Of a stretch of 31,319 nt of DNA, positions 1,988 to 30,710 are shown one piece after another. The notes below the pieces were generated by a model. It ran no database searches and was not told the DNA's origin. It worked only from the letters and a program-made list of their open reading frames with translations. Positions within the stretch are counted from its first letter, which is position 1. Each line of letters starts with the position of its first letter. The stretch is from a virus. Made by a program: the position numbers and the translations under genes. The DNA is taken from IMG/VR virus record IMGVR_UViG_3300031671_000005, positions 1 to 31,319 of that record; one strand, given 5' to 3'.

Positions 1988-2397
1988 TCTTCTATTTATC
2001 CCTATTCGTGTTCGGCGTTGCGGCTGGCTGGCTTGGGCCGCCGCTGCTGCTGCTGGTCCGCTCCACACTTAGCGCCAACCTCGCCAGCCTTTCCAGCGAA
2101 CAGAAGGTCGCGATCATAGAGCTGGTAGCGGAAAAGCTCGGCATCCTAGATGCCTTTAAGAAGGCCACCGACCCGAGCAAATTTCCGGTCACTACGGACC
2201 TCTTGGACTCACTGGTTCAAGCCGTCAACAAAAGCCTCGACAGTGTGGACAGGCACGCGCAGATTGGCGTACTTCTCGCGGCTTTCCTCGAGACGAACGG
2301 ATTCATCCAGGCTGGCGCCTTCGCCAAATGGCTTGAGGTTCGGAAGATGTCGGAATCGCAACCTCCGGGGGAAGATGCAAACTCAAGAGCAAATTGA
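1984..2397 (+). CDS. N-terminally anchored membrane protein, unknown function
   Basis: This 137-residue protein opens with a clear transmembrane helix at residues 2-26 (short N-terminus, then leucine-rich run), followed by a soluble helical domain of about 100 residues with an acidic, Ser-rich tail. The topology fits a single-pass inner-membrane protein with the bulk in one compartment. It is coupled to the gene before (ATGA) and overlaps the terminase start by 23 nt. Small membrane proteins next to terminase may be holin-like or superinfection-related, but a second membrane segment is not evident and the lysis genes are elsewhere. Function left open. Confidence 0.6.
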   Translation: MIFYLSLFVFGVAAGWLGPPLLLLVRSTLSANLASLSSEQKVAIIELVAEKLGILDAFKKATDPSKFPVTTDLLDSLVQAVNKSLDSVDRHAQIGVLLAAFLETNGFIQAGAFAKWLEVRKMSESQPPGEDANSRAN

Positions 2398-4051
2398 GCG
2401 CGAGTCCGAAAAGCTGCGCCGGGAACTCTGCGAAAGCGATCTCTGGTCATTCTGCGGCCAAGCATGGCAGGTCCTCGAACCGTCCCGCCCTTGGCATGGG
2501 ACATGGTATCGGCAGGCTATCGCGGAACATTTACAGGCGGCTTGGCGCGGCGACTTCCGCCGGCTGATTATCACCGTGCCGCCGCAGACCGGGAAATCCT
2601 CTCTCGTCACGAAACTATTTCCGATATGGGCGTGGATCAGCGAACCGAATACGCGCCTTCTTTTCGCGTCCTACAGTTTTGAAGCTCTGGCGGTGCCGAT
2701 GTCGGTTGATCGGCGCCGGGTTATTGAATCGGACTGGTATCAGCAGCGGTGGGGCACGCGGTTTCACCTGAGCGCCGATGACAACCTGAAATGGCGGTTC
2801 TCAAACGACAAGGGCGGCCACATGCTCGTGCTGACCGGCGCGACAGGCCTGGGCGGCGACGTTTTGCTCGTCGATGACCTCCACTCCGCCGAAGAGGCTC
2901 TTTCCGACGCTGATCGAACCAACGCCGTTACGCGGTTTCGCAAGGCGCTTATGTCTCGGCTCACGCCAGGCGGTCGGGATATTGCCATCATTGTCTGCCA
3001 GCGGTTGCATGAGCTTGACGTTGCCGGAACGATGCTGCGCGAGGGCGGCTGGGTTCACCTAAATCTGCCCGCGATTGCCGAACAGCATCATTCCGTCGCG
3101 CTCCCGCTTTCCAATGAGTACAAAGTCCGCAAGCCCGGCGACCTGCTGGATACCGAAACACTGAACAAGAAATACCTCGATTCCCGCATGATCGAACTCG
3201 GAGCAGACGGTTTCTCCGGTCAGTATCAGCAGGAACCCGCGCCCGCTGGCGGCATCATTTTCAAAACAGAATGGTGGAAACGGTACGAAGGCGCTGCGCC
3301 GCACAGCGATGTGATCGTGATTTCCGTTGACGCGGCGTTCAAGGCGAACCGGGATGCCGTTGCCGTCCACGCCTGGGGATTTCAAGGACCGAACGCTTAC
3401 CTGCTCGGCTGGACGACGGAGCCCCGCGGCTACGTCGCCACTAAGGACGTGATTCGCGCTATGGCCCACAAGTACCGGCCGAACGCAATTCTTATTGAGG
3501 AGGCGGCGAATGGAGCAGCCATTGTTGAAGAACTCGGGAAAGAATTTCCGGTTATCCCGATCCCCGTCAAGGATTCAAAAGAGTCTCGCGCACAGGCGTG
3601 CGCTCCGCAGGTACAGGCTGGTTGCGTCTCTGTTCCGGCCGGTTCGCTGGGTGATCGCTTCATCGTGGACTGTGCGAAATTCCCGAAAGGGGCAAATGAC
3701 CACGATGTGGATGCTTTTACTCTCGCCATAAACTGGCGGCGGTCGAACTCTCTGTGGGTGATTGACTACTACCGCGAAAAGGCGGCGGCAATGCCCAAGG
3801 CCGAAACGGAAACGCGCCGAGCGCAAGTCGATCAGTTCGAGACTTACGGCCGTGTTGCCCTTGGCGCGCGCAACCGACGCCCGATTCTGACGTGCGAATG
3901 CGGCGCTTCCCAGTGGACCGTAACGCACTTTTGGGACCACGCCGAGCGCAAATGCAGAACGTGCGGACAGGTAAAGGTGGATGATGCGAAGAAGGATTCA
4001 GGAGTGGCTGCGAAAGCGGAGACTCCGCAAACTTCGGTACGGGTCAACTAA
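2375..4051 (+). CDS. terL: Terminase large subunit (packaging ATPase-nuclease)
   Basis: This 558-residue motor protein translocates DNA into the prohead and cuts concatemers. The start at 2375 is chosen for the GGGGGAAG purine stretch just before it; the longer frame reads through the upstream gene. Residues 69-76 (PPQTGKSS) form Walker A, and 163-168 (VLLVDD) Walker B with the acidic pair. The C-terminal RNase H-like nuclease has D319 (ISVDAAF), E375 (ILIEEAANG) and D444/D446 (DHDVDAF). Length is usual for TerL up to about residue 470. The following 90 residues add a CxC (507, 509) and CxxC (527, 530) pair that looks like a zinc ribbon, an uncommon tail extension. The gene overlaps the next zinc-ribbon gene by 71 nt. 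Confidence 0.93.
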   Translation: MQTQEQIERESEKLRRELCESDLWSFCGQAWQVLEPSRPWHGTWYRQAIAEHLQAAWRGDFRRLIITVPPQTGKSSLVTKLFPIWAWISEPNTRLLFASYSFEALAVPMSVDRRRVIESDWYQQRWGTRFHLSADDNLKWRFSNDKGGHMLVLTGATGLGGDVLLVDDLHSAEEALSDADRTNAVTRFRKALMSRLTPGGRDIAIIVCQRLHELDVAGTMLREGGWVHLNLPAIAEQHHSVALPLSNEYKVRKPGDLLDTETLNKKYLDSRMIELGADGFSGQYQQEPAPAGGIIFKTEWWKRYEGAAPHSDVIVISVDAAFKANRDAVAVHAWGFQGPNAYLLGWTTEPRGYVATKDVIRAMAHKYRPNAILIEEAANGAAIVEELGKEFPVIPIPVKDSKESRAQACAPQVQAGCVSVPAGSLGDRFIVDCAKFPKGANDHDVDAFTLAINWRRSNSLWVIDYYREKAAAMPKAETETRRAQVDQFETYGRVALGARNRRPILTCECGASQWTVTHFWDHAERKCRTCGQVKVDDAKKDSGVAAKAETPQTSVRVN

Positions 4052-4280
4052 TCTCACTTGCCCGAACTGCGGAAACTGGCGGCATCTTGTCGAGCGGAAA
4101 TGGTTGTTCCCGTTCCTGGCTCTACGCCGGTACGAGGGCTGCATTCAGATTGAGTATGACGCCCGGTATCACCCGCTCACCGTGCTCTGCACCTGCCGGG
4201 TGTGCGGCGCGAAGTTCGGGCAGCCGCCGATGGTGAAGCATCAAGACTGGGTGGTTCACCCGCCGCTGAGGGAAACGTGA
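3981..4280 (+). CDS. Zinc-ribbon protein overlapping terminase
   Basis: This 99-residue basic protein has an arginine-rich N-terminus (residues 2-20), then CPNC near 27 and CxCxxC (CTCRVC) near 70. These make one treble-clef or zinc-ribbon type domain with a hydrophobic beta core between the knuckles. It starts 71 nt inside the terminase gene in another frame; ATG at 3981 or the adjacent ATG at 3984 are both possible after AAAGGTGG. Its stop overlaps the GTG of the next gene. It may help the terminase, whose tail carries similar cysteines, but no partner is proven. Confidence 0.6.
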   Translation: MMRRRIQEWLRKRRLRKLRYGSTNLTCPNCGNWRHLVERKWLFPFLALRRYEGCIQIEYDARYHPLTVLCTCRVCGAKFGQPPMVKHQDWVVHPPLRET

Positions 4281-5806
4281 GACTTCGGCTCTATCTGATT
4301 GCCACGGTCGCCGCGCTACTCGCGCCGTCGCTGGCCCTGGCTCAGACCACCTATACCGAGTCGGATGCGACTTCCGATTTGACTGCAACGCAGACCTGCA
4401 ATGCCATCTCGACCAAAAACAATTCTGCCATTGGCCCACTTTCGCTCCCTTCCTCTGGAGCAACCACCGGAACCGCCAGCGTTGGCATATTCAAAAGCAG
4501 CACGCAGAATTTCGAGTTGTATTCCGCTTCTGGCGTTCCCGCATCAACCTCATGGGCTTCGGGCAACTGGACCGTGAATCTCGACGTAACCACGGCGAAC
4601 TCAAACGTCAGTTGGACCGATACCTGCATCCTTCGTGTGAACTCCTCCGGGGTCTCGCAGGCAACCGTTGGGTCTCTGACTGGCCAGTCAGTCTCGATGG
4701 GGACAACTGGTGTTAAGAGTATGACGATCTCAGGTGCCACGCAGACGGCGCTCTCCACCGACCGATTCGTTATCGTAATTAACCTGAAAAACAGTAAGTC
4801 CACCGGCGCAGCGCAGACCGTCGGTCTGGACATGGGCAACGCCACGAACGACACGGTAGCGACTCCACTGGTATCCTCGGTGGCCTACACGCGGACCGAC
4901 AGCGAAACGCTCTCGCAGTCGGATAGCCCCGTTCGGCAGGCCGCCTTCGGTCGCGCCCCGGCTGAGTCGCAAAGCCCTTCAGACTCCACCGGCAGCAGCG
5001 AGGGATTCTCGGTATCCATCGGCGAGTCAATTTCGATGAGCGATTCGCCGGGAAGGTTTATCGGGTATCCTGCCGCGCTCTCCGAGGCGCAATCCGTCAC
5101 TGACTCACCAACGCGGTTGTACGCGGCTCTGCGCGGCCCGTCTGAATCGCAGGCAACCTCCGACTCTGCCGCCCGGCTGGCGACCTACGGAAAGGCCATC
5201 GCGGAATCGCAAGCCCCGACCGATTCTCCTGTGAGCCAATTCGGGCTGATCGCTACCGTTGGCGAAACAATGAGCGTCACCGATTCAACGTCGCGCATCG
5301 GTGGTTATTCGAGACTGCCTGGAGAAACGCAGGTGGTAAGCGATGCCGCAAGCCGGCTCGCGGCTCTCTCGGCTGGTGTGGCCGAGGCTCAATCGGTTAT
5401 CGACACGCCCTCACGGTTGGCTGCGCTACTGCTTCCGCTTACTGAATCGGCGAGTGTCACGGATTCGCTTGGGCGCTCGGCGGGATTCGGACGGGGGCTT
5501 TCCGAAGTCGGCTCCACGTCGGACCTACTTGGCCGCATGGCTGCCCTCATGCGCTCCGAGCCGGAAGCTATGCTCGTGAGTGATGCCCTTGGACGCCTTC
5601 AATCCCTGGGCCGATCGTTCACGGACGCGCAATCGCTCGTCGATACCGCCGTAGGGACATTCACCCACCAGGGGAAAACGTTTCCGCCAAGTCAGGGATT
5701 CCGGGTGGCGCCGGAAAACCGTGGCACGGCTGCTGGACCTGCGCCCAAAGGTACAGTTCTGCCACCAACCAGCAAGGGCACTACGGTGCCGGGGGTGCCG
5801 CATTGA
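4277..5806 (+). CDS. Exported repeat protein with twelve 20-residue repeats
   Basis: This 509-residue protein starts at GTG 4277 (GAGGG 6 nt before; GTGA overlap with upstream stop). Residues 1-22 form a Sec signal peptide (hydrophobic core, Ala-x-Ala-Gln end). Residues about 25-205 form a Ser/Thr/Asn-rich beta sandwich-like domain with the TWTVNLDVTTANSNVSW style of strands seen in phage and soil-bacterial surface proteins. From residue 210 there are 12 repeats of exactly 20 residues plus a partial thirteenth, each with an E-(S/A)-x-S-x-(S/T)-D-S core and a following Arg and hydrophobic patch. The last 45 residues are Pro/Gly-rich. It is probably a fibrous or adhesive virion or exported protein. 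Location between terminase and portal is unusual for such a gene. Confidence 0.75.
   Translation: MRLRLYLIATVAALLAPSLALAQTTYTESDATSDLTATQTCNAISTKNNSAIGPLSLPSSGATTGTASVGIFKSSTQNFELYSASGVPASTSWASGNWTVNLDVTTANSNVSWTDTCILRVNSSGVSQATVGSLTGQSVSMGTTGVKSMTISGATQTALSTDRFVIVINLKNSKSTGAAQTVGLDMGNATNDTVATPLVSSVAYTRTDSETLSQSDSPVRQAAFGRAPAESQSPSDSTGSSEGFSVSIGESISMSDSPGRFIGYPAALSEAQSVTDSPTRLYAALRGPSESQATSDSAARLATYGKAIAESQAPTDSPVSQFGLIATVGETMSVTDSTSRIGGYSRLPGETQVVSDAASRLAALSAGVAEAQSVIDTPSRLAALLLPLTESASVTDSLGRSAGFGRGLSEVGSTSDLLGRMAALMRSEPEAMLVSDALGRLQSLGRSFTDAQSLVDTAVGTFTHQGKTFPPSQGFRVAPENRGTAAGPAPKGTVLPPTSKGTTVPGVPH
4904..5671 (+). repeat. 60-bp-period coding repeats (12.8 copies)
   Basis: Within the gene at 4277, repeat units start every 60 nt from 4904. 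Each encodes 20 residues of the form ESxSxSDSxxRLxxxxrxxx; the E, D-S and Arg positions are best kept. There are no length changes across 12 units. Nucleotide identity between units is low, so the array is old and selected at protein level, not a recent expansion. A beta-solenoid or stacked rod with one turn per unit is a reasonable inference. Confidence 0.8.
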
Positions 5807-6117
5807 ACGCTCCTATCAATAAGTACCCGTATCAGAAGGACAGCTACTACATTGACTTCATAGAGCAACTGAACGCCGGCGAAACAATCACTTCGTTCAC
5901 GGTCACATCGCAACTCGATTTTTGGGGCACGTTCACCGATTCGACGGCAGAGATCATCTCCACGACTCCGGCTCCGTCACTGAGCGGCACCCAAGTCACC
6001 TTTTGGTATCAAGCTGGAAACGCCGGAGAACGGCACGTCGTTTCGGTTGATGTCGTGACTTCCGGAGGCCGACAGCTTGTCGGCGTCGTTGATTTGAATG
6101 TCCTTCAGGAGGAATGA
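5803..6117 (+). CDS. Putative fibre-tail adaptor-like small beta protein
   Basis: This 104-residue protein starts at TTG overlapping the upstream stop (TTGA), with GGGGGT 6-10 nt before. The pattern 'KxxxDSYYIDF-xxLNAGETI-xSFTVTS ... FWYQAGNAGERHVVSVDVVTSGGRQ' is the all-beta small domain common in phages as the fibre-tail adaptor or BACON-like accessory protein (known by pattern, not searched). No signal peptide, unlike both neighbours. It may link the repeat protein upstream or a fibre to the particle. Confidence 0.55.
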   Translation: MNAPINKYPYQKDSYYIDFIEQLNAGETITSFTVTSQLDFWGTFTDSTAEIISTTPAPSLSGTQVTFWYQAGNAGERHVVSVDVVTSGGRQLVGVVDLNVLQEE

Positions 6118-6118
6118 A

Positions 6119-6637
6119 ATGAGAAAAGTTCTGCTTTTTTCCGTGCTGAGTTTCTTCGCCCTAGGGCTGGCGGCGACACCGATCCAGGACCAGATGAGGA
6201 CCGTCGGAACTATCTCGGTCGTTGCGCGCCATCCGAACGGTCAGGTTTTCTATCGGTCCTCGCTTCCCGACCTTGAAACAAACGCCGGGTTGGACTTCCA
6301 AGCCGATGTCATGGGCACGACCGGGACTCAGGTTGCCGCGTGCAATTACCTCGCGCTGACCGACACGGCGATCAGCCCGGCGGCCACGGATACAACACTC
6401 TCCGGCGAGATCACCACGAACGGCCTCGCCAGAATCATAGGCACCTACGCACATACGACCGGCGCTGACACCTACTCCATCGCGCACACATGGACGGCGA
6501 CGGCCGCACAATCCGCACAGGGCGCCGGGATGTTCAACGCTTCGAGCGCGGGAACCATGTGCTTTGAGAACACCTTCACCAGCGTATCGCTCTCGACGAA
6601 TGACACGCTGACGCTGACTTGGACCATAACGTACTAA
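6119..6637 (+). CDS. Signal-peptide-bearing virion-like protein
   Basis: This 172-residue protein has an excellent AGGAGG (6107-6112) 6 nt before ATG 6119. Residues 1-19 are a Sec signal peptide (MRKVLLFSVLSFFALGLAA). The rest is all-beta: 'TNAGLDFQADVMGTTGTQ', 'YLALTDTA', 'DTTLSGEITTNGLAR', 'DTLTLTWTI'. This order (no-domain start, 'dtTLxGEi..gLaR', twin aromatic strand, C-terminal 'DTLtlTWxI') is a phage protein type found near portal and fibre genes in many uncultured phages; exact function unknown, perhaps head or tail fibre. It sits 10 nt before the portal fusion gene. Confidence 0.6.
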   Translation: MRKVLLFSVLSFFALGLAATPIQDQMRTVGTISVVARHPNGQVFYRSSLPDLETNAGLDFQADVMGTTGTQVAACNYLALTDTAISPAATDTTLSGEITTNGLARIIGTYAHTTGADTYSIAHTWTATAAQSAQGAGMFNASSAGTMCFENTFTSVSLSTNDTLTLTWTITY

Positions 6638-6647
6638 GGAGACTCTA

Positions 6648-9600
6648 ATGGCTTGGTTCGACAGGCTGGTTAAGGCCACAAATCACGGCACGAACTATCT
6701 GTTCGGTCGCCGGCCCGGCGCTGGCACCCCGGCGTCGCCGGGTATGCCTCCCTCTGGTAGCGATCACCCGCCGGCGAACCGCCCAACGCCAAATGAGTCT
6801 GTGATTCACGGCTGGGGCACGACTCAGGGAACGATTGGCCAGATGCAGGACAATAAGCCTCAGTCGAACTACGGCATCACCGGAGAGCAGAACGAGGGAA
6901 CCGGCCCCGGACCTTCGGCCGGCACGGACATCAACACTCCCGAGCAAAACGTCGCCCAGCGCGAGGGTATCCAGCCGATCCAAAACCCGCCGGGGATTTC
7001 GGTTGTTTCCTCGACAGACTGGTTTGGGCCGCTTCAACCGCTGCGCCCGGCGGCGCCGATGGGCACCGGAGCCCGGAAGTTTGAATACGTCCTCGGCCAG
7101 AACATCATCTTTGAGCCGCGCGCGAACGAGGCGATATCTTTCCGCGTCATGCGCGCCCTGGCCGATTCCACCGACCTTCTTCGCGCTGTGATAGAGACGG
7201 TCAAGAACCAGATGAAGCGGTCGAAGTGGGACATACACTCCCAACCGCTGCCCGGCGAGGAAGCGCGGGCTCAGGCGAAGCGCGAATCGCAGGACAAGCA
7301 ACTATTGGAACTCAGGGAACTTCTGCGCCATCCCGACGGCTTGCACCCGTGGGAAACGTTCTGTGGCGAACTCATGGAGGACATGCTGGTAGTGGACGCG
7401 CCCAGCGTCCTGATCCGCCGGGACCCAAGCGGGAAGAAGGTCAAATCTCTAGTTGTCGTGGACGGCTCGCGCATTACGCGCTACATCACGACCAGCGGAC
7501 TCACCCCGGAGTCCGACCCGGAATGCACGCATGAGGGCCATGCTTTGCTCGGGCGAATGCAGGAGCAGAAGGCGGGCAAGAAGTTTGTCGCCTGCAACTG
7601 TGCGGCCTACACCCAATACCTCTACGGCGTCAACGCGGTCAACCTCACCACACATGACCTCGTTTACATCCCGTACAACATGCGCCCGCACAAGCTCTAT
7701 GGCTACTCGCCGGTCGAGCAAATTATCGTGGCCATCAATCTCTACTTGCGGCGCGAAATGGCCCTGCTGGAATACTACACGTCCGGCAACATCCCCGAAA
7801 TGATCGCGTTCCTGCCGAACTCCGTCACCGTCGATCAGGTGAAGGAATTCGAGGAATGGTTCAATACGGTCAACCGTGGCGACCAAGCGTTTATGCGGCG
7901 CGTGCGGTTTCTTCAGAACCCATCGGCGAGCGGCGAGCCGAAAATTTTTGAGACGAAGCAGCACCTTCTCGCCGAGGAATTGGATAACTGGCTCGCTCGG
8001 ATCATTTGCTACGCCTTCAACGTTCCGCCGAACGCGCTGGTCAAGATGGGCTACGCGCGCGCAATGGCTCAGACCGTCGAGGATGAGAGCCAGGCGACCG
8101 GCATCGAGTCTTACCAGACGTGGTTCGCGTCCTTTATGAACCATATCATTCACGTCCAGATGGGGATGCCGCAGTACACCTTCGCCTTCCTGCCGATCCG
8201 CGAGACTGACCTGCTGGCCCAGCGGCAAGCCGACTCGCTGCTAGCTTCAAAGGGCGGAATGACCTGGAACGAATGGCGTCTTAGCGAGGGTCGGCCGCCT
8301 TACGGAGATGAATTCCCGGACGCCGACAGGCCGATAATCATAACTGCCGCTGGCTACGTTGTTATCGGGGATGGTGGCCCGGTCCAGCAGAAACCGCTCG
8401 CGCTGCCAACGCCGCCCGGCGCCGACGGCAAGGATCAAGAGAACGGCAAGGATGAGGAGGACGATTCCCCGCCGGATGGGAAGAAGGCCGTCTCGTTCCC
8501 TATTCAGGCCGCGCGGGTGAATGGGACTGAACCCCACGCGGCCTTCGGAAGAATCAGACAGGCGGTTCTCGAAACATTCCGGGAGCAAGCCGACGCGCTG
8601 AAGAAGGCGCTGGGAGAACTACGGAAAAATGAGCAACAAGACCTCGAAAAGAAGCTCTGGCTCGCCATCGCTGCCTACTACGCGCTCTTGCCGGACCGCA
8701 TCGAACCGGGCCTTAAGCAAGCCGCAATCGAAGCCGCCATGCTGGCGGCCCAGCAAGCGGGCGCTCCTCCGGGCATTCAGTCGGCAATATCTGCCTTCAC
8801 TCGTGCGAAAGATTATGCGCGATCACGTGCTGCTGAACTCGTTGGTAGGGTCCGTGCCGCCGATGGAACGCTTGCGGATAATCCAAACGCTCGTTGGGTT
8901 ATCTCCGAAACTACGCGGCAAGACATCCGCGAAGCCGTCGAAAAGGCGCTCGCCGGGGAACTGAAGGATGCGGAAGGCAAGCCTCTCGACTTGTCCGAAG
9001 CGATTCGCCGCCAACTTCTCGACACGCATTCCGGGCCATTCAGCGAGTACCGCGCGAACCTGATCGCACGCACCGAAATCAAGAACGCGCAAGCCGCCGC
9101 GAAGAACGAGACGTGGAAACGAATGGGCGTTCCGGCCTCAACGTGGTGGACAATGCACGACTCGAAGGTGTGCCCATTCTGCGCGATGAATGACGGCGTG
9201 ACGGTGCCGCTCGGTAAACCTTTCCCCTCGGGCGCGAAAAGCGTGGCTGACAGCCATCCGAATTGTAGGTGCCTACAGCTACCGGCCAATCTCGAAGGGA
9301 TGCCCGGCGCGCGGCGGCTATCGAAGTCAACTCTCGGGCTGCCGCAGACCTGGCACGCCTACTTCGGCCGGCACGAGGAAACGATTGCGAACGAGCACGA
9401 CCTTGCCCGCGGCTGGGGTAATTGGGGGCTGACGCCGGACGGTCGCAAGGGTGCCCAGCGCACGGCCGAATGGCTTGTCGGCCACGGGATAACTCGCATA
9501 GTTTCCTCAGACCTTCCTCGCGCCAAGCAGACGGCGGAAATCTACGGGAAGGCTCTCGATCTACCAGTCGAGCTTGCCCCGGAGCTTCGCTCGCTGAACG

Positions 9601-9956
9601 TTGGCGAATTCACCGGATCGCACAAGCCGTCCTCACGCGAACGGTTTCTCTACTACATCAAGCACACGCACCGGGTCATTCCGGGCGGCGAGTCGGTTCG
9701 CAGCTTCGTTCACCGGATCGCTGCTTTTGTTGTCCGCGACATGGCCGAACATCCCGACGACGACACGTTGTACGTCACCCATTCTTCAGGGCTCGGCGCG
9801 CTGTGGGAAGCGATCAACGGAGCGGATTGGAAGCACCTTGCCCACGATGACATCGTTGAGCCCGGCGGCGTGGCCGAACTGGCACACGGCGACATGAAAG
9901 CGATTTACCGGCCAGCACCGCAACGGTCCGGGGAACTGATCGAGGCCTTGCGATGA
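6648..9956 (+). CDS. Portal-MuF-histidine phosphatase triple fusion
   Basis: A single 1102-residue frame (AAGGAG 6 nt before ATG). Residues 1-125 are Gly/Pro/Asn-rich linker. About 130-570 is a portal protein (YGYSPVEQII, LRREMALLEYYTSGNIPEM). An acidic linker (about 585-615) leads to the MuF/SPP1 gp7-type head-morphogenesis domain, about 620-880, with ARTE, VCPFC (C842, C845) and HPNCRC (870-875). Residues 902-1102 are a histidine phosphatase: R908-H909, R958 (SSDLPRA), E979, GGES at 1013-1016 and second catalytic H1045 (YVTHSSG). The RHG motif reads RHE (Glu at 910). Portal-MuF fusions are known; a C-terminal phosphatase is to my knowledge unusual. Inferred role: a virion enzyme carried in or near the portal and possibly ejected with DNA, like MuF-linked effector domains. 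It may be processed by the protease encoded downstream. Confidence 0.85.
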   Translation: MAWFDRLVKATNHGTNYLFGRRPGAGTPASPGMPPSGSDHPPANRPTPNESVIHGWGTTQGTIGQMQDNKPQSNYGITGEQNEGTGPGPSAGTDINTPEQNVAQREGIQPIQNPPGISVVSSTDWFGPLQPLRPAAPMGTGARKFEYVLGQNIIFEPRANEAISFRVMRALADSTDLLRAVIETVKNQMKRSKWDIHSQPLPGEEARAQAKRESQDKQLLELRELLRHPDGLHPWETFCGELMEDMLVVDAPSVLIRRDPSGKKVKSLVVVDGSRITRYITTSGLTPESDPECTHEGHALLGRMQEQKAGKKFVACNCAAYTQYLYGVNAVNLTTHDLVYIPYNMRPHKLYGYSPVEQIIVAINLYLRREMALLEYYTSGNIPEMIAFLPNSVTVDQVKEFEEWFNTVNRGDQAFMRRVRFLQNPSASGEPKIFETKQHLLAEELDNWLARIICYAFNVPPNALVKMGYARAMAQTVEDESQATGIESYQTWFASFMNHIIHVQMGMPQYTFAFLPIRETDLLAQRQADSLLASKGGMTWNEWRLSEGRPPYGDEFPDADRPIIITAAGYVVIGDGGPVQQKPLALPTPPGADGKDQENGKDEEDDSPPDGKKAVSFPIQAARVNGTEPHAAFGRIRQAVLETFREQADALKKALGELRKNEQQDLEKKLWLAIAAYYALLPDRIEPGLKQAAIEAAMLAAQQAGAPPGIQSAISAFTRAKDYARSRAAELVGRVRAADGTLADNPNARWVISETTRQDIREAVEKALAGELKDAEGKPLDLSEAIRRQLLDTHSGPFSEYRANLIARTEIKNAQAAAKNETWKRMGVPASTWWTMHDSKVCPFCAMNDGVTVPLGKPFPSGAKSVADSHPNCRCLQLPANLEGMPGARRLSKSTLGLPQTWHAYFGRHEETIANEHDLARGWGNWGLTPDGRKGAQRTAEWLVGHGITRIVSSDLPRAKQTAEIYGKALDLPVELAPELRSLNVGEFTGSHKPSSRERFLYYIKHTHRVIPGGESVRSFVHRIAAFVVRDMAEHPDDDTLYVTHSSGLGALWEAINGADWKHLAHDDIVEPGGVAELAHGDMKAIYRPAPQRSGELIEALR

Positions 9957-10459
9957 ATCTCGGGAGCATGATCGCCACCGAAAGCCCGGAGGACGCCTAC
10001 ATCGGCGCGATCACCTATGGCGAGGTTCTGGACAAACTGACGCCAGATGAGGCGCTGATCTTCGTCTTACTGATTCGCGGATTCACCTATCACGAGGTCG
10101 CCGCGATGATCGGCATGTCCTATGCACGGGTGAAGCACGTCTGCGCCGACCTGATCCGCAAGGTTGAGTCTCTAACCTCCGCGACACCGCCGGTACCACT
10201 CTGTGAAAAAATAAAAGTATGCTCGAGCAAATCAGGCTTGACGCCCAGTTTGCCAAAGTCTCGGAATATCGCCATGAAGTCACCGGCGTCATCGCCGCCG
10301 AAACCCCGGACCGATCCGGCGAAATCCTCGACTACGAGCGGAGCAAACCACACTTCACGGAATGGTCGAAATCGCAATTCGCGGACTCCCGTGGAAAATC
10401 CAAGGGCAACGTCCGGCGGATGCACCAGCTTGATACCGTTGGGAAAATCGTTAGGCTAG
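9953..10459 (+). CDS. Small HTH protein whose frame runs into the protease gene
   Basis: The start overlaps the portal stop (ATGA). Residues 28-72 form a sigma-region-4/LuxR-like helix-turn-helix (LTPDEA, GFTYHEVAAMIGMSYARVKHV). The frame continues 240 nt inside the protease gene, encoding residues 90-168 that are Ser/Pro/Arg-rich and look like an accidental out-of-frame product. At 10206-10211 there is an A6 run; with one A fewer the frame would stop at once (TAA) after residue 85, just before the protease ATG. Either the overlap is real, a slip occurs at A6, or the homopolymer is miscounted. The HTH could control late genes or bind DNA during packaging. Confidence 0.6.
   Translation: MNLGSMIATESPEDAYIGAITYGEVLDKLTPDEALIFVLLIRGFTYHEVAAMIGMSYARVKHVCADLIRKVESLTSATPPVPLCEKIKVCSSKSGLTPSLPKSRNIAMKSPASSPPKPRTDPAKSSTTSGANHTSRNGRNRNSRTPVENPRATSGGCTSLIPLGKSLG
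10203..10214 (+). promoter_or_regulatory. GTG-AAA-AAA-TAA mini-ORF just before the protease start
   Basis: The 12-mer GTGAAAAAATAA ends 4 nt before ATG 10219. An almost identical 12-mer (ATGAAAAAATAA) precedes the tail tube gene at 15278-15289. Read as codons both are start-Lys-Lys-stop. It may be a translation leader that feeds ribosomes to the next start, an A-rich S1-binding enhancer or a promoter element. Confidence 0.35.
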
Positions 10460-15304: not shown

Positions 15305-16099
15305 ATGGCTGCTCCAACGACTTTCGCAACAGAGTACGTTTTTGGCACCGGCCGCATTTACGCGGTGAACAACGGCACAGGCAAGGTTCCCACGTCGCCC
15401 GCCACCATCCAGCCAGCGCAATTCCTGTCCCTGCAAGAGGCAACGGTCGAAGAAGCTGTCACCCTGAAAGAACTCCCGTCCTCATACGAATTCCCCGATT
15501 CCGTGGCCAACGGCGAGCGGAAGATGACTGGCAAGATCACCTTCGGCCGCGTGGACCTTCTGCTGCTGAATGAGATTGTGTGGGGCGAGAACAGCTTCGC
15601 CGCAGGCGGCACGCTGGTCCAGGGTTCCGAGGCTGGCGCCGTTGGGGCTGCGACTCCATACACCTACTCTGCGACCAACGCGGCGACATTTATTGCCGAC
15701 CTGGGCGTTTATTACGTCGCCACTGGCAAGCAGTTGACGAGCCTCGGGGCGACCGGCACGCCGACCACAGGGGAGTATACAGTTGCGGCGGGCGTCTACA
15801 CCTTCGCTGCTGCTGATGGGGGTCTCGCAATCCTGGTCAATTACACCTACACGAGCCTCACCGCCGGCTCGAGCGTCACCGTGAACACGCAGATTATGGG
15901 CATGGCTGCCCGGCCGTCATTCGGCCTGTACCTGTCGATGCCGAGCGATGGTGCCAATTCCGACCTAATCATCTTCAACGCGCGCGCCGCCAAGCTCAAT
16001 CGGCCCTTCAAGTACAACGATTACCTGAAGGTCGAGCTCGACTGGGAAGCGTACCCCGGAGCGAACGGCGCGGTTTACCAGTGGTGCAGCGCAGTCTGA
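15305..16099 (+). CDS. Major tail tube protein
   Basis: This 264-residue protein builds the hollow tail tube. It follows the tail terminator and precedes the tail chaperones. Beta-rich N-terminus (EYVFGTGRIYAV, ATVEEAVTLKEL, GERKMTGKITFGRV), an insert with TGEYTVAAGVYTFAAADGG, and the end 'PSDGANSDLIIFNARAAKLNRPFKYNDYLKVELDWEAY' match tube proteins, where the last strand-helix-strand unit is best kept. AGGTGA precedes ATG. Confidence 0.8.
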   Translation: MAAPTTFATEYVFGTGRIYAVNNGTGKVPTSPATIQPAQFLSLQEATVEEAVTLKELPSSYEFPDSVANGERKMTGKITFGRVDLLLLNEIVWGENSFAAGGTLVQGSEAGAVGAATPYTYSATNAATFIADLGVYYVATGKQLTSLGATGTPTTGEYTVAAGVYTFAAADGGLAILVNYTYTSLTAGSSVTVNTQIMGMAARPSFGLYLSMPSDGANSDLIIFNARAAKLNRPFKYNDYLKVELDWEAYPGANGAVYQWCSAV

Positions 16100-18933: not shown

Positions 18934-19152
18934 ATGCTGACCATCAAAAGGTTCCTCGCACGGTATTCGATCACGACTCATTCGATTGCCGCAGCCGTTG
19001 TGTTTCTCGTCGCGGCGTACCAAGGAGTACCGCAGTTTCGGACGGACGTTCTGGCCGTCTACAACCTGATGCCCCTGGCGCTCCGCGAAGCCGTTCTGGA
19101 CGCCGGGCTGCTCATCGGCTTTTACAAGACATGGAGGAAGGCAGGCAAATGA
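18934..19152 (+). CDS. Small holin-like membrane protein
   Basis: This 72-residue protein starts at 18934 rather than 18928 because AAGGAG (18922-18927) has a 6-nt gap to it. It has two hydrophobic stretches (about residues 14-31 and 54-66), a charged N-terminus (KRFLARY) and basic C-terminus (YKTWRKAGK). This fits a class II or III holin making lethal holes or a membrane helper. Coupled by ATGA to the lipoprotein gene; the SleB-like lysin follows two genes later. Family not recognised, role inferred from context. Confidence 0.55.
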   Translation: MLTIKRFLARYSITTHSIAAAVVFLVAAYQGVPQFRTDVLAVYNLMPLALREAVLDAGLLIGFYKTWRKAGK

Positions 19153-19538
19153 AAAATCGACGTTCGGCTGTTTGTGCCGTATTCGCTCTTCTGCTTCTAA
19201 CCGCAGGCTGTGCGAGCAAGGCGTATGTGATTCATCCCGGCTCGCCCAACCTATTCGACTCTCAGTCCTACGACGTCTTGGTGACGGCCCACGCGGCCAT
19301 CGAGCAAGCCAAGACAGAACTTGCGGCAGGCAAATTCGCCGCCACCGCCCCACAGGTCAAGTTGGCCCTCAACGCGCTGATCGACGCCTACGACGTGATG
19401 GACGTGGCCTACACGACCTACCACACCTCTGCCGTCGCTGGGACAGCCACAGCGGCTCAGGTTGCCGCACTTCAGAACGGCGTGGGTGCCGTGAACAACG
19501 CGATGGGTGGATTGACAGTCACCACCGGAGGCAAATGA
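19149..19538 (+). CDS. Lipoprotein in lysis cassette (spanin candidate)
   Basis: This 129-residue protein starts at ATG 19149 (overlap ATGA). Signal of lipoprotein type: MKNRRSAVCAVFALLLLTAGC with lipobox LTAGC and Cys at 21, after which it would be lipidated. The mature part is helical and Ala-rich (AHAAIEQAKTELAAGKF..., LNALIDAYDVMDVAYTTYH). An outer-membrane lipoprotein in a phage lysis module suggests an outer-membrane spanin-like role, but an inner-membrane partner of typical type is not adjacent, and standard o-spanins are shorter. It implies a host with an outer membrane or at least lipoprotein export. Confidence 0.6.
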   Translation: MKNRRSAVCAVFALLLLTAGCASKAYVIHPGSPNLFDSQSYDVLVTAHAAIEQAKTELAAGKFAATAPQVKLALNALIDAYDVMDVAYTTYHTSAVAGTATAAQVAALQNGVGAVNNAMGGLTVTTGGK

Positions 19539-19750: not shown

Positions 19751-20169
19751 TGCCGCTGGAGGCTGAATTGGGCGAAGATGTGTTGTGGCTGGCGCTCTGT
19801 TGCTGGAAGGAAGCCCGCGGGCAAACCGCAGCCGCGAAGCTCGGGCAGTGCTGGGTCGTTCGGAATCGCGCGCGCTCTTCGTTGCCGCGCTGGCCTCGCC
19901 GGATTCTCGACGTGGTGACTCAGCCCTATCAGTTTTCCGCGCTGACTGCGCCAGGCGACCCGAACCTCGCGAAGTGGCCGAAGTCGCTTGATCCGTCGTG
20001 GGGCGATTGCATCTCGGCTGCTCGGGAATGCCTCTCTGGGAACACGCCCGATCCGACCGCCGGCGCGACCTTCTATTACAGTGACCCACTCTCCGCACCG
20101 CCGCCCGGCTGGGGTGGAATTGTTAGCACGGTCGAAATTGACGGGCTGCATTTTTACAAACTCGCATGA
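19750..20169 (+). CDS. Cell wall hydrolase, SleB-like endolysin
   Basis: This 139-residue protein starts at GTG (TAGTG overlap). Opening VLWLALCCWKEARGQTAAAKLGQCWVVRNRAR is the Hydrolase_2/SleB pattern, in which the Glu of EARG (E21) is the catalytic acid of a lytic transglycosylase or amidase-type activity; QPYQFSAL follows as expected. No signal peptide, so release needs a holin. Degrades peptidoglycan at the end of infection. The end overlaps the next gene. Confidence 0.85.
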   Translation: MPLEAELGEDVLWLALCCWKEARGQTAAAKLGQCWVVRNRARSSLPRWPRRILDVVTQPYQFSALTAPGDPNLAKWPKSLDPSWGDCISAARECLSGNTPDPTAGATFYYSDPLSAPPPGWGGIVSTVEIDGLHFYKLA

Positions 20170-20177
20170 GGACGCGC

Positions 20178-23100
20178 ATGAGAAAAATATTTCTCGCCAT
20201 CGGCTTCCTGCTGTTGAGTGCCGCACCGGCTTTCGCTCAAACAAACACTTTTTGCCCGACCAACCAAAACTGCGTTTACACCGGATCGCTGACGGCAACT
20301 GGCAACGGAGCGGCCGGGAATGTACCGATCAAGCCGACCACAACCGACGCGATCCAGTACGTGTCGCCCAATGGCCTGGACACGAACGACGGGCTGTCCT
20401 GGGGCACCGCGAAGCTCTCGATCTACGCTGCCTACAATGCGCTCTACGGATTGGCGACACCAGGCGGCACGATTTTCGTTGCGCCAAACTCAGCTTGCGG
20501 CGGACCCGTTACCGGACAGGGCTTGTGGATTATGGGATCGGGCGACCCGAACTATGCCACGCCGCCTAGCGGCTGGGTCAAGGCCATGCCGTTCTCACTC
20601 ATCGGTGTGCCCACAAACAACAGCGACGCCAATTCGCCCAGCCAAACGGTGAAGGTGGTTTGCGGCTCGACTGCTTCGGCTAATCTCCCGGCTCTGTGGA
20701 TTAGTTCCAGCAATGGCGGCACGATTAAGAACATATCGTTTCCCGGCGGCTACCAGACGGTCCGGTTCGGAATCGACTCGAACGGCGCGGACACGGATAC
20801 CGGAGCCGTCAACTGGATTTTCAAGAACGACGACTTCGTTTCCGGATTGGTTGCTAGCGGCGGTCCCACCATCGAAATCGGCTCGAACACGTTCAACGTG
20901 CACTGGGATGATGATTGGGCGCAAGCGGACTACAACGCGCCCGGCGGAACGGACCTACGGCAGGCTATCGTCTTCATGTACCTCGGCGGGCCGTCAGGAT
21001 GCCAGTCTCCATCCCTACAGTTCTTCAACAATCTGCACTTGAATAACGGCGGTATTCGCTGGCATAACCCAGTGCAACAAGGTTGCAACAACGGCGGCTC
21101 GCTTTTCGTGAATGGACTCGTGACCGAGAACCAAACCGACGGCAAGGGCGCGGTGTGGTTCGACAAACTTTCTTCATATGGAATCTACGAGATCAATAAC
21201 GTCGAAGTGGCCGACGCTTCGCCGTTTAGCCCTCCGATTGAGGTTGATGCGGCGACCGAGCAAAACTGGGATGCCCTCACAACTAATTCCGACACGTGCG
21301 TGCCGGGCATTTTTGTTGGGCCGAACGAATCCGGCTACTACACCGCTGGCACGGGCGGCGAGCCATCGAAGTGCGGCACCGTCGGATTTCATTACGGCAA
21401 GGTGTGGGGCCAGACGGACGCTGGCAGACGGCTATTCAGCTTCGATGCTTCGCGCTTTGCGAACCTCGCGCCACAGACCCCGGCAAGTTGGACTAACGCC
21501 ACCATATCGAGCGGGATCGCCGCTCCAGACGGCACCACCAATGCAGGCCAAGTGACTCTTGGAACCGTTACCTTCGCCACCGTCACCAAGAGCCCCGCCG
21601 TCGGCGATCTCGTTCTCGCTGGGGTATGGTACCGAGTCGAGTCCACCACGGGCATCAGCGGCGGCATCCCATTGTCGATTTACGCGACGGGCTGCACGGG
21701 CACCGCGCTGTTTCAGGATATCGGTGGCTTACTGACGCCATCTTCCGGCCCACATATTCTTAGCGAGGGGGAGAACGGCGACGGCCAATGGGTGTGGGCG
21801 AGCGGGGCGTTCAAAGTCACGCAGGCTGCAACGGGATGCGCCTTGGAACTGAACAGCGTTATGAACGTCACCAGCACGGGCTACGTCGATTACTTCGCCC
21901 CCGTGCTTGAGTACATTCCAGCGGGCTCTGGCGTCTCGCCAACCGAAGCGGCCGACATGGCCGTAAACCTCGCGCCCTACCCGAACACCATCGCACCGCC
22001 CGTCGTATCTACGCTGCCGGGCCATCCAATCGCCTTCGGCGGCTCTGGAGACAGTTTCCTGGCCACGCTCGACCACACGGCACTCACAGCGAATACAATC
22101 TTCGATCTGCCCGCTGGGAACGGTACCGCGCAGACGATCTGCACGAGCGTAGTGCCAGGACCTTGCAGTGGGTCGGCTGGCACGGGTTTCAACGGCGGGG
22201 CTGGAACATCCTACCAGGATGCCGAAGCGATTGCCGCGCCAGCCGACCCCGCATCGGGCTACGACCGCTTGTATATTGGTACCAGCGATGGCGACCTCCA
22301 CTGTTTGACGAGTGCAGGTGCGAATTGCCTGCCATCCAGCGGAAGCAGCGCATGGTCCGCGCTCACCGTTCCATCCGCCAACCTTTCGTTGGCAATGGGA
22401 ACCGATACGACCACTTTCACATGGAGCAATGCTGCGGCCAGTTTCTTCCTTGGTCAGTCCACCGCCGCTACTTCCTCGGCGAACGTGGATTCGCCGGAGG
22501 TTGAACTTTTTGGCACTTATTGGAACGGCACGGCGACCGCTAACGATGAATGGTTCTTCCAAGATGAGCCTGGAAATGGAACGAATCCGACTTCTACGCT
22601 CGCCATTTTTCACTCGGGCTCGACGGGCGCGGCGTTGGTCAGCGTTCCCGCCTTGACGGCAACTGGCAATATCAGCGCGGCATCATTCACAGTGAATTCC
22701 AGTGGAACGACGCCCGGCGTGCTCGAACTGCTTGGCAACACCTCTGCCCCCGCTCTTACGGCAAACACGTTCAGCCTGATCGGCCCGAACCTCGCCACCT
22801 TCACGGCTTACGGGATACAAGTTCCCTCGACCGCTCCGGCTACGAACACCGTCGAGGAATTCGGTGCGGCCAGCGGAGGGATTTCGCCCATCACATTCAC
22901 GAACGCTCCTACGCTCTCGGCGGCGAATCTAACGAGTTTCCCAACGCTAAATCAGAGCACCACAGGCACCGCTGCGAACGGCACGATTGCTACTGGCACA
23001 GCGACCCTCGGCACCGCCGCCATAGCTTCAGCAGCCTGTGCGACAGTCGTAACCGTCGCGGCAACCGGGGCTGTGACAACCGATGTCGTGACTGCCAGCT

Positions 23101-23267
23101 TCAATGGCGACCCAACCGCAGTGACCGGCTACGTGCCTCTCACGACAGGGATGCTAACGATTGTCGCTTACCCTACGGCGGGAGACGTGAATTTCAAGGT
23201 CTGTAATAACACCAGCGCGTCGATCACACCCGGAGCGATTACTCTGAATTGGGCGGTGTTGCCATGA
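20178..23267 (+). CDS. Exported beta-helix fibre or tailspike candidate
   Basis: About 1029 residues. The start at 20178 (AGGA 6 nt before) is preferred over ATG 20166. Residues 1-20 are a clear signal peptide (MRKIFLAIGFLLLSAAPAFAQ). Residues about 50-330 have the 'YVSPNGLDTNDGLSWGTAK...GGTIFVAP' start and repeating NxxF/xNN turns of a right-handed beta-helix of pectate lyase type. A Ser/Thr/Gly-rich middle (DRLYIGTSDGDLHCLTSAG) and a C-terminal beta domain (TDVVTASFNGDP...MLTIVAYPTAGDVNFKVCNNTS) follow, probably for trimerisation. Likely receptor binding or polysaccharide-degrading; active-site residues cannot be named. Confidence 0.7.
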   Translation: MRKIFLAIGFLLLSAAPAFAQTNTFCPTNQNCVYTGSLTATGNGAAGNVPIKPTTTDAIQYVSPNGLDTNDGLSWGTAKLSIYAAYNALYGLATPGGTIFVAPNSACGGPVTGQGLWIMGSGDPNYATPPSGWVKAMPFSLIGVPTNNSDANSPSQTVKVVCGSTASANLPALWISSSNGGTIKNISFPGGYQTVRFGIDSNGADTDTGAVNWIFKNDDFVSGLVASGGPTIEIGSNTFNVHWDDDWAQADYNAPGGTDLRQAIVFMYLGGPSGCQSPSLQFFNNLHLNNGGIRWHNPVQQGCNNGGSLFVNGLVTENQTDGKGAVWFDKLSSYGIYEINNVEVADASPFSPPIEVDAATEQNWDALTTNSDTCVPGIFVGPNESGYYTAGTGGEPSKCGTVGFHYGKVWGQTDAGRRLFSFDASRFANLAPQTPASWTNATISSGIAAPDGTTNAGQVTLGTVTFATVTKSPAVGDLVLAGVWYRVESTTGISGGIPLSIYATGCTGTALFQDIGGLLTPSSGPHILSEGENGDGQWVWASGAFKVTQAATGCALELNSVMNVTSTGYVDYFAPVLEYIPAGSGVSPTEAADMAVNLAPYPNTIAPPVVSTLPGHPIAFGGSGDSFLATLDHTALTANTIFDLPAGNGTAQTICTSVVPGPCSGSAGTGFNGGAGTSYQDAEAIAAPADPASGYDRLYIGTSDGDLHCLTSAGANCLPSSGSSAWSALTVPSANLSLAMGTDTTTFTWSNAAASFFLGQSTAATSSANVDSPEVELFGTYWNGTATANDEWFFQDEPGNGTNPTSTLAIFHSGSTGAALVSVPALTATGNISAASFTVNSSGTTPGVLELLGNTSAPALTANTFSLIGPNLATFTAYGIQVPSTAPATNTVEEFGAASGGISPITFTNAPTLSAANLTSFPTLNQSTTGTAANGTIATGTATLGTAAIASAACATVVTVAATGAVTTDVVTASFNGDPTAVTGYVPLTTGMLTIVAYPTAGDVNFKVCNNTSASITPGAITLNWAVLP

Positions 23268-27470: not shown

Positions 27471-30400
27471 ATGGGCCTGTTGAATAAGACGCCGCCATTC
27501 AGGCCGACTCGCTATAACTCCGTACGCACAAACGTCTCCGAACTTGGTACGCCGCTGCCGATTATTTTCGGGCAGCAGCGCGTCGGTGCGAAGCTGCTGT
27601 GGTACGGCGATTTCAAGTCGGCCAAGGCGCAGACGCCCGGCGGATCGGGGCTCGGCAAAGGCGGCGAAAACTATGTTTATTCAACTAGTTTGATCGCCGC
27701 GCTGTGCCAGGGGCCGTGTCTTGGCCTGCTGAACCTCTGGCAGGGCGCAAATAAATATGTGGGCGACTTTTATACCGAGAACTTCACCGTGCCATCCGGC
27801 GGGGGATCGTACACCGTTGCGAACGCGACGGCTTTTATGCTCGATCATGGCGCTGCCCAGCAGTACACCTTCAGCTACGTCACAAACGATTACGGATCGC
27901 CAACGGTTGCTACCGGATTCGTTTTGGAGGACAGCGGCGGCTTCCTCTGGACAATTCGCTCCGACGACGCGACAGGTGGCCTAGTTGCGGTCAAGGGCTC
28001 GACCGGAACGGCTGCGGCCGTGTACCTCACCGACCCAACGGGCGCGACTTCATGGCAAATTGAAATCACGACAGCCGGATCGCTAGAAACCGTGTCGGTT
28101 ACCCTGAACGCTTCCTATCCCAAGTTTCTTCAAACATCGGCCGAATTCGCGCTCCAGGTAAGCGCCACCGGCAATTTGCAGACGTTCCCGCAGACGGTTG
28201 TTTCCTCAACCATTACGGGAACTGACGCGAGAGCACTGGTGGCCGTGCCAAGCGCTCCAGGCGCCGGGCAGTATTCGGTGGACCCCTCCACTGGTGTTTA
28301 CACCTTCGGCGCCGCCTTGGCGACCGTCACTATCGAGATTTCATACTCCGCGTTCCGATACCAGCTTGTCGCCGACGAACTCTCGGTCGTTCCCCTCACG
28401 TCGCCCTATCAGGTGACGATTGAGAACCAACCGTATTTTCAGACCGATGAGGGGGTTGTTTATTACCCGTCGGACGTGGCTCTCACGCCAGTTGGCGGCA
28501 CGCCGTCAGTCACCGGGACCTACAATCCCAACGGCGGGAACTACCTCTTCGCCCCCGGAGACGCTGGCAAGGGCATCGAAATCAGCTACCAGTACAAAGA
28601 CCCGAACGTTGATGTGAACGCGCCCAGTAGCCTCAACCTAACGTTTTTTGGCGGCACGCTCGGGCAGTCGCCGTGGTCGTACCTGGAATCGAACTATCCG
28701 GGGCAGGCCCTCGGCTACAGGATGATCTGTTACATCGCTTCGGAAGCGTTTTACCTTGGATTCTCGCCGATGATGCCCAGCCTGAATTACGAGGTTGCCG
28801 GGCTGCTCGCGGTTGGTGGCGGCGTCCGTGACGCGAACCCGGCCGATTGCATTTACGGCTTACTGACCGACCCCGGCTACGGTATCGGTTTTCCGGCTGC
28901 CTCCATCGACGACGCCTCGCTGCGCGGCACGGGCACATCGTTCGGGACTTCCTCTCCCAGCATGAAAGCCATGTGCGCGGCCAACGAATTCTTCATTTCG
29001 GATGTGCTCGACAATCAGATGAGTTGCGCGAGCGTAATAGGCCGCTGGCTCGAAGCCTCGCAAACCGGCGCTTACTGGTCGGAAGGGCTACTGAAATTCA
29101 AGCCGTACTACGGGTCGAGCGCGGTCGGTAACGGCTGGTTTTACGCGCCGCCGACTCAGCCGGTCGTGAGCCTCGATGACTCCGATTTCGTGCAGGACAA
29201 GGATTCGGACCCGATCAAAGTTACTCGGCGGGCGTGGCAGGACGCCTACAACCGCGTGCAGCTTTCCTGGGACGTGCGCGCGAATGATTACAACCCGGAC
29301 GTGCTCTACGCTCAGGATGACGCCTCGATTCAGCGGTTCGGTCTGCGAATTGAGGACCCGACCGACTACACCTTCTTGGTCGAAGAAGATGCCGCGCAAT
29401 TCGCCGCAAACATGCGAGTCCAGCGGAACACACAGATTCGCAACACCTACCAGTTCACCCTTCAGGAATCGTACTGCTATCTCGAACCGATGGACGTGGT
29501 TGAGATCACCGACGAAACGCTCGGCCTCGTCAGTGCCCCGGTGCGGTTGACCAGCGTTGAATATCAGGCGGACGGTTTCGTGGTCTGCGAAGCCGAGGAC
29601 TTTCCGTGGGCGGTTTTGAACGTTGTGCTTTATCCGAAGCAGGCTCAAGAGCCAACTGGCGGACCGTCCAGCACGGTGAACGATCCCGGCAACACCACGC
29701 TGACCATCCTCGAAGGCCCGAACCGGCTCAACAAGCAACTCGGCTACATCCTGTATGTCGGCGCGGCCGGCCAGAACAAAAATTGGGGCGGCTGCCAGCT
29801 TTGGATTTCACTCGACGGAACGATTTACTCGCCGCTCTACAAGTTTCAGAACGCCTCGCGGATCGGCAAGCTGACGGCGGCGCTGGCGGCCACGGCCGAC
29901 CCGGATACCACCGACACGCTCTCGGTCCAGATGATTAACTCCGACGCCGGGCTCATCAGCGTGCCGCAATCCGTAGCGGACCTGTTCGGAACGCTTTCGG
30001 CCATCATCACCGGATCGGGCGTTGAACTCATCAGCTATGAGAACGCGGCCCTCGCCGGAATCAACACCTACAACCTGACCTACCTCCGGCGCGGGGTCTA
30101 CGGCAGCGCGGTTGCCGCGCACAGCATCGGCGACGAATTCATGCGGATGGACGACGGAGTTTTCCAATACCAGTACGACCCGACGCTGGTTGGCACGACC
30201 GTCTACATCAAGGCGACCAGCTTCAACACGCTCGGGCAGAACGAACAGAGCCTCGCGGACGTGACGGCGCTGGAGTTTGCTCTTGAGGGAATCTCAGTAG
30301 GGGCCATTGACATAGTGGCTGGTCAGCCAAACACCGTGTTGAGTCAGAGCTTAACGTCGCTTCTTTCTTCCAGCAATAGTCATATCGGATACGTCGATCA

Positions 30401-30710
30401 GACAATTCCGCCTGGGGCCACTGGAACGTGGTGGTTTTTGAGCTTATATGCCGTCGTTCGCACGGCAGGGACGGCCGGGCTGGTCTACCTCACGCTCGAC
30501 TATTGGAGCGGCGGCGTACACTTCCCAGGGGCAGAGTACGACTCGCTTGACCCGACCGTGGCTGGCAATTCCGTACAGCAGTACATCAATATTACCGATG
30601 CCGACGCAGGTAAGCCAATCGCGGCATTTCTTACGTGGAGCGGGAGTCCGCCGAGCGACGCAGTGATTGACTTCTACGTTACCATAACCCGTAGGGTGTG
30701 GGTGAACTAG
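27471..30710 (+). CDS. Large tail-tip (J/megatron-like) protein
   Basis: This 1079-residue protein starts right after the peptidase stop, with GGGAG 6 nt before. N-terminal 'PTRYNSVRTNVSELGTPLPIIFGQQRVGAKLLWYGDF' is typical of gpJ and GTA-like tip proteins. Middle 'DPGYGIGFP...DDASLRGTGTSFG...LLKFKPYYG' and 'AAQFAANMRVQRNTQIRNTYQFTLQESYCYLEPMDVVEITDET' match phage-tail_3-type domains (about 620-720). The C-terminus has beta domains ending with a 130-residue fibre-like part for host contact. Stop at 30708-30710 within a CTAG shared with the opposite gene. Confidence 0.82.
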   Translation: MGLLNKTPPFRPTRYNSVRTNVSELGTPLPIIFGQQRVGAKLLWYGDFKSAKAQTPGGSGLGKGGENYVYSTSLIAALCQGPCLGLLNLWQGANKYVGDFYTENFTVPSGGGSYTVANATAFMLDHGAAQQYTFSYVTNDYGSPTVATGFVLEDSGGFLWTIRSDDATGGLVAVKGSTGTAAAVYLTDPTGATSWQIEITTAGSLETVSVTLNASYPKFLQTSAEFALQVSATGNLQTFPQTVVSSTITGTDARALVAVPSAPGAGQYSVDPSTGVYTFGAALATVTIEISYSAFRYQLVADELSVVPLTSPYQVTIENQPYFQTDEGVVYYPSDVALTPVGGTPSVTGTYNPNGGNYLFAPGDAGKGIEISYQYKDPNVDVNAPSSLNLTFFGGTLGQSPWSYLESNYPGQALGYRMICYIASEAFYLGFSPMMPSLNYEVAGLLAVGGGVRDANPADCIYGLLTDPGYGIGFPAASIDDASLRGTGTSFGTSSPSMKAMCAANEFFISDVLDNQMSCASVIGRWLEASQTGAYWSEGLLKFKPYYGSSAVGNGWFYAPPTQPVVSLDDSDFVQDKDSDPIKVTRRAWQDAYNRVQLSWDVRANDYNPDVLYAQDDASIQRFGLRIEDPTDYTFLVEEDAAQFAANMRVQRNTQIRNTYQFTLQESYCYLEPMDVVEITDETLGLVSAPVRLTSVEYQADGFVVCEAEDFPWAVLNVVLYPKQAQEPTGGPSSTVNDPGNTTLTILEGPNRLNKQLGYILYVGAAGQNKNWGGCQLWISLDGTIYSPLYKFQNASRIGKLTAALAATADPDTTDTLSVQMINSDAGLISVPQSVADLFGTLSAIITGSGVELISYENAALAGINTYNLTYLRRGVYGSAVAAHSIGDEFMRMDDGVFQYQYDPTLVGTTVYIKATSFNTLGQNEQSLADVTALEFALEGISVGAIDIVAGQPNTVLSQSLTSLLSSSNSHIGYVDQTIPPGATGTWWFLSLYAVVRTAGTAGLVYLTLDYWSGGVHFPGAEYDSLDPTVAGNSVQQYINITDADAGKPIAAFLTWSGSPPSDAVIDFYVTITRRVWVN

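Follow-up and report, generated by a model that had tools for sequence, protein, structure and literature searches.

What is an exported protein built largely of short repeats doing among the packaging genes of a tailed phage? The question is raised by a gene at positions 4277-5806 (+ strand) of a siphovirus-like phage genome, the 31.3-kb IMG/VR virus record IMGVR_UViG_3300031671_000005, here called the window (31,319 nucleotides). The gene appears to belong to a movable three-gene cassette of acidobacterial phages and prophages, which as a unit is absent from the family libraries searched.

The gene is an open frame with a GTG start and a TGA stop, encoding 509 residues. Its GTG at 4277 shares bases with the TGA that ends the upstream ORF (3981-4280), and GAGGGA stands in front of this start, as read from the sequence. 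The first 22 residues (4277..4342) form a Sec-type signal peptide, VRLRLYLIATVAALLAPSLALA followed by Q, with the predicted cut between ALA and Q. This signal, already recognised in the initial annotation, is evident by eye and passed a crude test of hydrophobicity and charge; its n-, h- and c-regions, by the same crude rule and by eye, predict a Sec-exported protein. Behind it lie an N domain of ~180 residues (4343..4888), modelled by AF2 and VIA-align as a jelly-roll-like beta sandwich, then twelve full 20-residue units with the consensus xExQSVSDSxxRLAAxxRxx (4901..5620), and finally a decayed thirteenth unit with a Gly/Pro/Lys-rich C-terminal tail (5621..5803). The C-terminus reads KGTTVPGVPH, while those of the related proteins at loci L004 and L019 read KSGTAPVH and KTGEAPVH.

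The initial annotation described twelve exact 20-residue repeats from about E210 to residue 449, followed by a partial unit. The layout stands: the full units span residues 209-448, all of equal length with no insertion or deletion, and the decayed unit follows. Exactness does not extend to the sequence, since pairwise identity between units averages 32% in protein and 42% in DNA, the latter bearing out the strong DNA divergence that had been remarked on. Residue identity at lags of 20, 40, 60 and 80 was 0.32-0.38, and shuffles (n=2000) reached at most 0.195 at any lag. The Glu, Asp and Arg positions are kept as described: across the twelve full units, Glu occupies position 2 in 12/12, Asp position 8 in 12/12 and Arg position 12 in 10/12. 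With the partial thirteenth unit included, position 2 is Glu in 12/13 (the remaining one being Asp), position 8 is Asp in 13/13 and position 12 is Arg in 10/13. Codons at the kept residues are mixed (GAA 8, GAG 4; GAT 7, GAC 5); from this and the low identity between units we infer that the repeat is old and constrained. The conserved spacing of acid 2, acid 8, Arg 12 and Arg 18 marks two 10-residue halves, and the Glu/Asp/Arg positions are held over 75 units from eight proteins, these units having been chosen by a loose acid/Arg rule. The repeats are rich in Ser, Ala, Thr and Gly, and their alignment within the window protein was too degenerate to serve as a search profile.

The gene does lie in the interval between the TerL gene (2150-4051) and the portal gene and is non-standard for it, as had been stated; it is not the immediate neighbour of either. 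On the TerL side intervenes a small ORF (3981..4280, +) with CxxC/CxCxxC motifs, whose stop overlaps the repeat-gene start; it had no PHROG match, and NCBIfam gave zinc-binding families below threshold only. On the portal side are two further genes. One (5803..6117, +), whose TTG start overlaps the repeat-gene stop, encodes a Gp77-like Ig protein without a signal peptide. It matched Pfam PF23148 (Gp77) at E 1.2e-9 and 39 bits, above the curated cutoff of 27, and weakly (E 0.004) a virion-associated phage protein, PDB 8jou_D. The other (6119..6637, +; start taken as ATG 6119 after AGGAGG) encodes a protein with its own predicted signal peptide and a phrog_5417 domain (E 6e-7, profile positions 22-155 of 156), hereafter the 5417 protein. 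From the repeat gene through these neighbours, each stop codon overlaps the next start or almost adjoins it, and the three predicted genes, repeat protein first, form a three-gene cassette. Next comes a gene (6648-9956) for a portal, Mu-F and histidine-phosphatase fusion (Pfam E 9e-12, 5e-10 and 1e-29), a product of 1102 residues in which the joining of a phosphatase domain to portal/Mu-F is unusual. Right behind it lies a sigma-70 region 4-like protein (9953-10459), an odd position for a regulator. The window further encodes a head-tail adaptor, a tape measure, and tail assembly and J-like tail proteins.

The repeat protein had no significant full-length match in Pfam, PHROGs, PDB sequences or INPHARED/GenBank phages and no match in PLSDB plasmids; its best NCBIfam model, ser_rich_anae_1, scored 24.8 bits where the cutoff is 650. 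Matches between the repeats and PDB sequences all had E values of 0.3 or more and were discarded as chance. Direct search of viral contigs returned a single match, the near-identical IMG/VR contig 3300031670_000022, which carries the same gene at 100% identity; N-domain scans of viral contigs found the same contig only, and a genome-contig scan with the L004, L019 and L012 repeats yielded nothing confirmed. Relatives were reached instead through the phrog_5417 neighbour. Where a phage contig had this domain and sufficient flanking sequence, an exported protein with 20-residue units of the same kind was in most cases encoded close by, namely at L004 (694 aa, SESNTASDAIARLAGFGRAD), L005, L006/L007, L010 (908 aa) and L012, with a weaker case at L009. 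With all six-frame ORFs of ~33 loci scanned, the repeat model matched a single ORF per locus; most of these loci had been fetched via the 5417 gene alone, so that their choice did not favour a repeat neighbour.

Gene order and domain composition vary among these relatives. Two acidobacterial MAGs (L023, L027) hold full orthologues, with N domains 67% and 49% identical to that of the window, respectively, and nine full units against the window's twelve, a difference of exactly three units. The order repeat, Gp77-like, 5417 is common to the window, L023 and L027; at L004 and L010 the three genes are adjacent with the 5417 gene first, and repeat and 5417 genes lie near each other at L005, L006/L007, L012, L015, L019 and L030. 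The N domain is exchanged between members while the repeat stays, as at L019, a locus found through its repeats: here the head is a LamG_3 lectin (E 1.8e-15), and a 5417 gene is present as well. Variants at other slots, with N domains swapped, occur in at least seven further phage contigs, and the L005 protein bears a TIG domain at its C end. In podovirus MW202512, a distant N-domain homologue lacking a signal peptide is encoded between the portal and MCP genes. The 5417 domain is itself broken by inserts of different kind at L006 (7719-8822) and L019 (5575-6495).

Conservation in phage and prophage cassettes supports the view that this is a real phage gene. A search of related phages for the same gene slot, as had been advised, recovered the cassette in slots after the portal, capsid protein or tape measure instead. 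It lies between TerL and portal in the window, between the portal and the protease/capsid region at L004 and L012, after the capsid protein at L005, immediately ahead of a terminase-like gene at L010 and on the tail side at L019, L023 and L027; several of these gene names were read by eye from sequence, the L004 portal being assigned by PF06074. On this mapping, the TerL-portal slot is not special for the cassette. L027 is part of an acidobacterial contig of 382 kb in which it has cellular genes on either side, and it therefore represents a prophage. On this basis, Acidobacteriota are the probable host group of the window phage. Only 2/297 sampled Acidobacteriota genomes were matched, one of them through the L027 prophage itself. 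The other, a weak match (L053; G207 contig C8, 85801-86205), is to a related repeat (E 2.8e-5) carried by a 2025-residue chromosomal frame, with no phage context recognised around it.

Export of the repeat protein was matched by export of its partner. With export status judged by eye and a crude rule, all ten exported repeat proteins had an exported 5417 partner (10/10), and the three non-exported ones (L013, whose unit is of a different AGxATGTG type, L015 and L030) each had a non-exported partner (3/3). Fisher's test gave p 0.003, or 0.005 if L023 and L027 are counted once, in both cases with kinship ignored. The exported partners include a clear lipobox at L012 (LAGC), a probable one at L005 (LVLCAC) and signal anchors at L004, L019, L023 and L027. 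The non-exported pair at L030 lies among genes for an S78 protease, a gp6-like connector, a head completion protein, HK97 gp10 and a tape measure, and its repeat protein had no relatives in viral contigs or phages. Export status, as predicted here, belongs to the repeat/5417 pair: two proteins of the particle-building region would switch together between exported and cytoplasmic forms.

A counterpart of the cassette is also found on chromosomes of ammonia-oxidising soil archaea. The same repeat type occurs in 8/70 Nitrososphaeraceae genomes (profile E down to 1e-19), 5417 proteins occur in 6/70, and five genomes hold both (hypergeometric 3e-5), with the two within ~18 kb of each other in at least three. 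No phage genes were recognised near L024, L026 and L028. Like the window protein, these archaeal giant surface proteins, whose repeats read [SA]-[DE]-S-x-x-V-x-D-x-x-x-R, are exported and 5417-linked; they differ in their chromosomal location, in BNR-like modules (by eye), in a C-terminal membrane anchor (L026, the one giant read to its end) and in length, some reaching 2000 to 4000 residues. The initial annotation had held that a clear match to a secreted host protein with no phage linkage would speak against a phage fibre or adhesin. These archaeal proteins supply half of that, and the linkage to phages is nevertheless strong and the Acidobacteriota share small.

The best structural model of the repeat family favours order over the disorder that had been named as counting against a rod. 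We predicted the repeat fold by AF2 from an in-register alignment of nine L004 units with those of the window, L019, L023, L012 and L010. The best of five models showed strands of ~7 residues and turns of ~3 throughout, with pLDDT 63 overall and 70-75 in its middle part and pTM 0.59; the other four had pLDDT from 50 down to 25. Foldseek gave no significant match to this model. Among Foldseek candidates, VIA-align superposed it on SufBCD (Z 15.4, 170 residues, 2.7 A) and pectinase beta-helices (Z 12-13); the parallel beta-helices matched included polygalacturonase, pectate lyases, SRRP adhesins and the LKA1 tailspike. From this family model the repeat is most like a two-sheet beta-solenoid with one coil per unit, which is compatible with the rod originally proposed. 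The unit would be a simple charged-ladder design, apparently solenoid, and orthologue length shifts by whole units. The predicted N domain has strands at mature residues 43-164 (pLDDT ~50-77); VIA-align placed IBDV VP2 at Z 9.8 and CBM4 at Z 7.3 among unrelated rows. We assign it with modest confidence to the jelly-roll-like sandwiches, in keeping with the beta sandwich-like domain suggested earlier. It had no Pfam match, and neither catalytic residues nor known sugar-binding ones could be identified.

We tentatively explain the repeat protein as an adhesin that is expressed late, exported through Sec and active at the infected cell's envelope. Late synthesis would follow from the overlapping gene string shared with terminase and portal, and is suggested because the codons overlap with those of head genes. 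The Gp77-like Ig protein and the exported 5417 partner, a lipoprotein or signal anchor in relatives, would be co-made with it. Once folded, a jelly-roll head, probably glycan-binding, may sit on a short beta-solenoid rod with a 20-residue coil per repeat, ~6 nm long if each coil adds 4.8 A, in which Glu2/Asp8 and Arg12/Arg18 would form stacked charged ladders. Once exported, the repeat protein would cooperate with the 5417 protein, most likely in binding glycans on the surface of the infected or lysing cell. Masking of these glycans could keep progeny from being trapped on their own host's envelope or debris. We favour this adhesin because of export, the anchored partner, the exchangeable lectin-type heads and the archaeal counterpart, and we rank it above a place in the virion; both readings are much less secure than export, cassette and repeats.

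Of the new fibre or adhesin type envisaged in the initial annotation, we retain the adhesin half. A virion fibre is not supported: the export signal, the partner's anchor or lipobox and the chromosomal counterpart in archaea speak at least as strongly for the cell envelope. A glycan-binding particle fibre attached via the Gp77-like protein, here exported first and docking after lysis, is a possible but more doubtful reading. It is favoured by non-exported homologues among connector genes (L030) and by the cassette neighbour that matches Gp77, by name a virion fibre-tail adaptor; the MW202512 homologue, without a signal peptide and between portal and MCP, is in line with it, as are the swappable heads on a conserved stalk, which are typical of receptor-binding proteins. 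However, an N-terminal signal peptide would part the protein from cytoplasmic assembly, the 5417 partner is membrane-anchored or a lipoprotein in several relatives, the archaeal counterpart is chromosomal and membrane-anchored, and we know of no precedent for virion docking after lysis. Quite unlikely, even taken jointly, are two compound schemes in which the fibre spans two compartments: the Ig-type adaptor would enter the particle in the cytoplasm and the Sec-exported, glycan-binding stalk would dock at lysis only, or the stalk would bridge the particle and the anchored 5417 protein at lysis.

An unlikely alternative is a passenger cassette (moron), that is, a host or archaeal adhesin module that alters the host surface without a role in phage multiplication. 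The Nitrososphaeraceae loci pairing repeat and 5417 genes without recognised phage genes nearby, the varying slot between phage genomes and the export of 10/13 pairs would all fit such a module. Yet the cassette lies mostly within head and tail gene strings, its start/stop overlaps with late-operon neighbours would leave little space for a promoter of its own, and phage versions without export exist. Very improbable, finally, is that the repeats are a disordered Ser-rich linker whose 20-residue period is a mere duplication relic. The window protein's own repeats reached a pLDDT of only ~30 (AF2, alignment of 7 sequences), and their Ser-, Ala-, Thr- and Gly-rich composition would suit a linker. 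Against this stand the twelve units without insertion or deletion, the charged positions kept across the loosely chosen 75-unit set, the regular strands of the in-register L004 model and its match to a beta-helix over 170 residues. The envelope adhesin remains our preferred reading.

Parts of this system have known parallels. Beta-solenoid adhesins and fibres, such as L. reuteri SRRP, two-partner secretion domains and CsgA / FapC, likewise have a predicted coil per short repeat, export and an adhesive context, but none had a sequence match with the repeat protein; for the curli-type CsgA / FapC a structural score was obtained for FapC only (VIA-align Z 2.3). By score the second cassette gene is a member of PF23148, Gp77, the podophage GP4 fibre-tail adaptor, whereas a tape measure and a J-like protein mark the window phage as siphovirus-like, and the exported repeat protein is not itself a Gp77 member. 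Porphyromonas gingivalis phages encode Q-rule exported proteins of unknown function (PMC10367356), which are likewise phage-encoded Sec substrates with a mature end glutamine; their host phylum is another, and the available part of that report describes no repeat protein. Exported phage proteins of unknown function, for example in Porphyromonas phages (PMC10367356), and beta-solenoid adhesins as a kind are known already. The combination of a movable repeat/Gp77/5417 cassette, a paired export change and an archaeal relative had no match in the families and literature searched; the literature, covered mostly outside subscription journals, gave no account of such repeats or of any tailed-phage fibre that is secreted. 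The cassette makes it testable whether tailed phages assemble part of their exterior beyond the cytoplasm, or remodel the host envelope late in infection.

Other genes of the window also stand out. The tail-gene region encodes a second large exported protein (20166-23267, 1033 aa, signal peptide MRTRMRKIFLAIGFLLLSAAPAFA), which by eye resembles a beta-helix of the pectate-lyase type and matched nothing in Pfam or PHROGs. A small probable lipoprotein (19131-19538; LLLTAGCASK) directly upstream of an endolysin-like gene could be part of a spanin. Within the J-like tail protein (27471-30710), one stretch matches phrog_8234, the family of a separate gene at 15305-16099.
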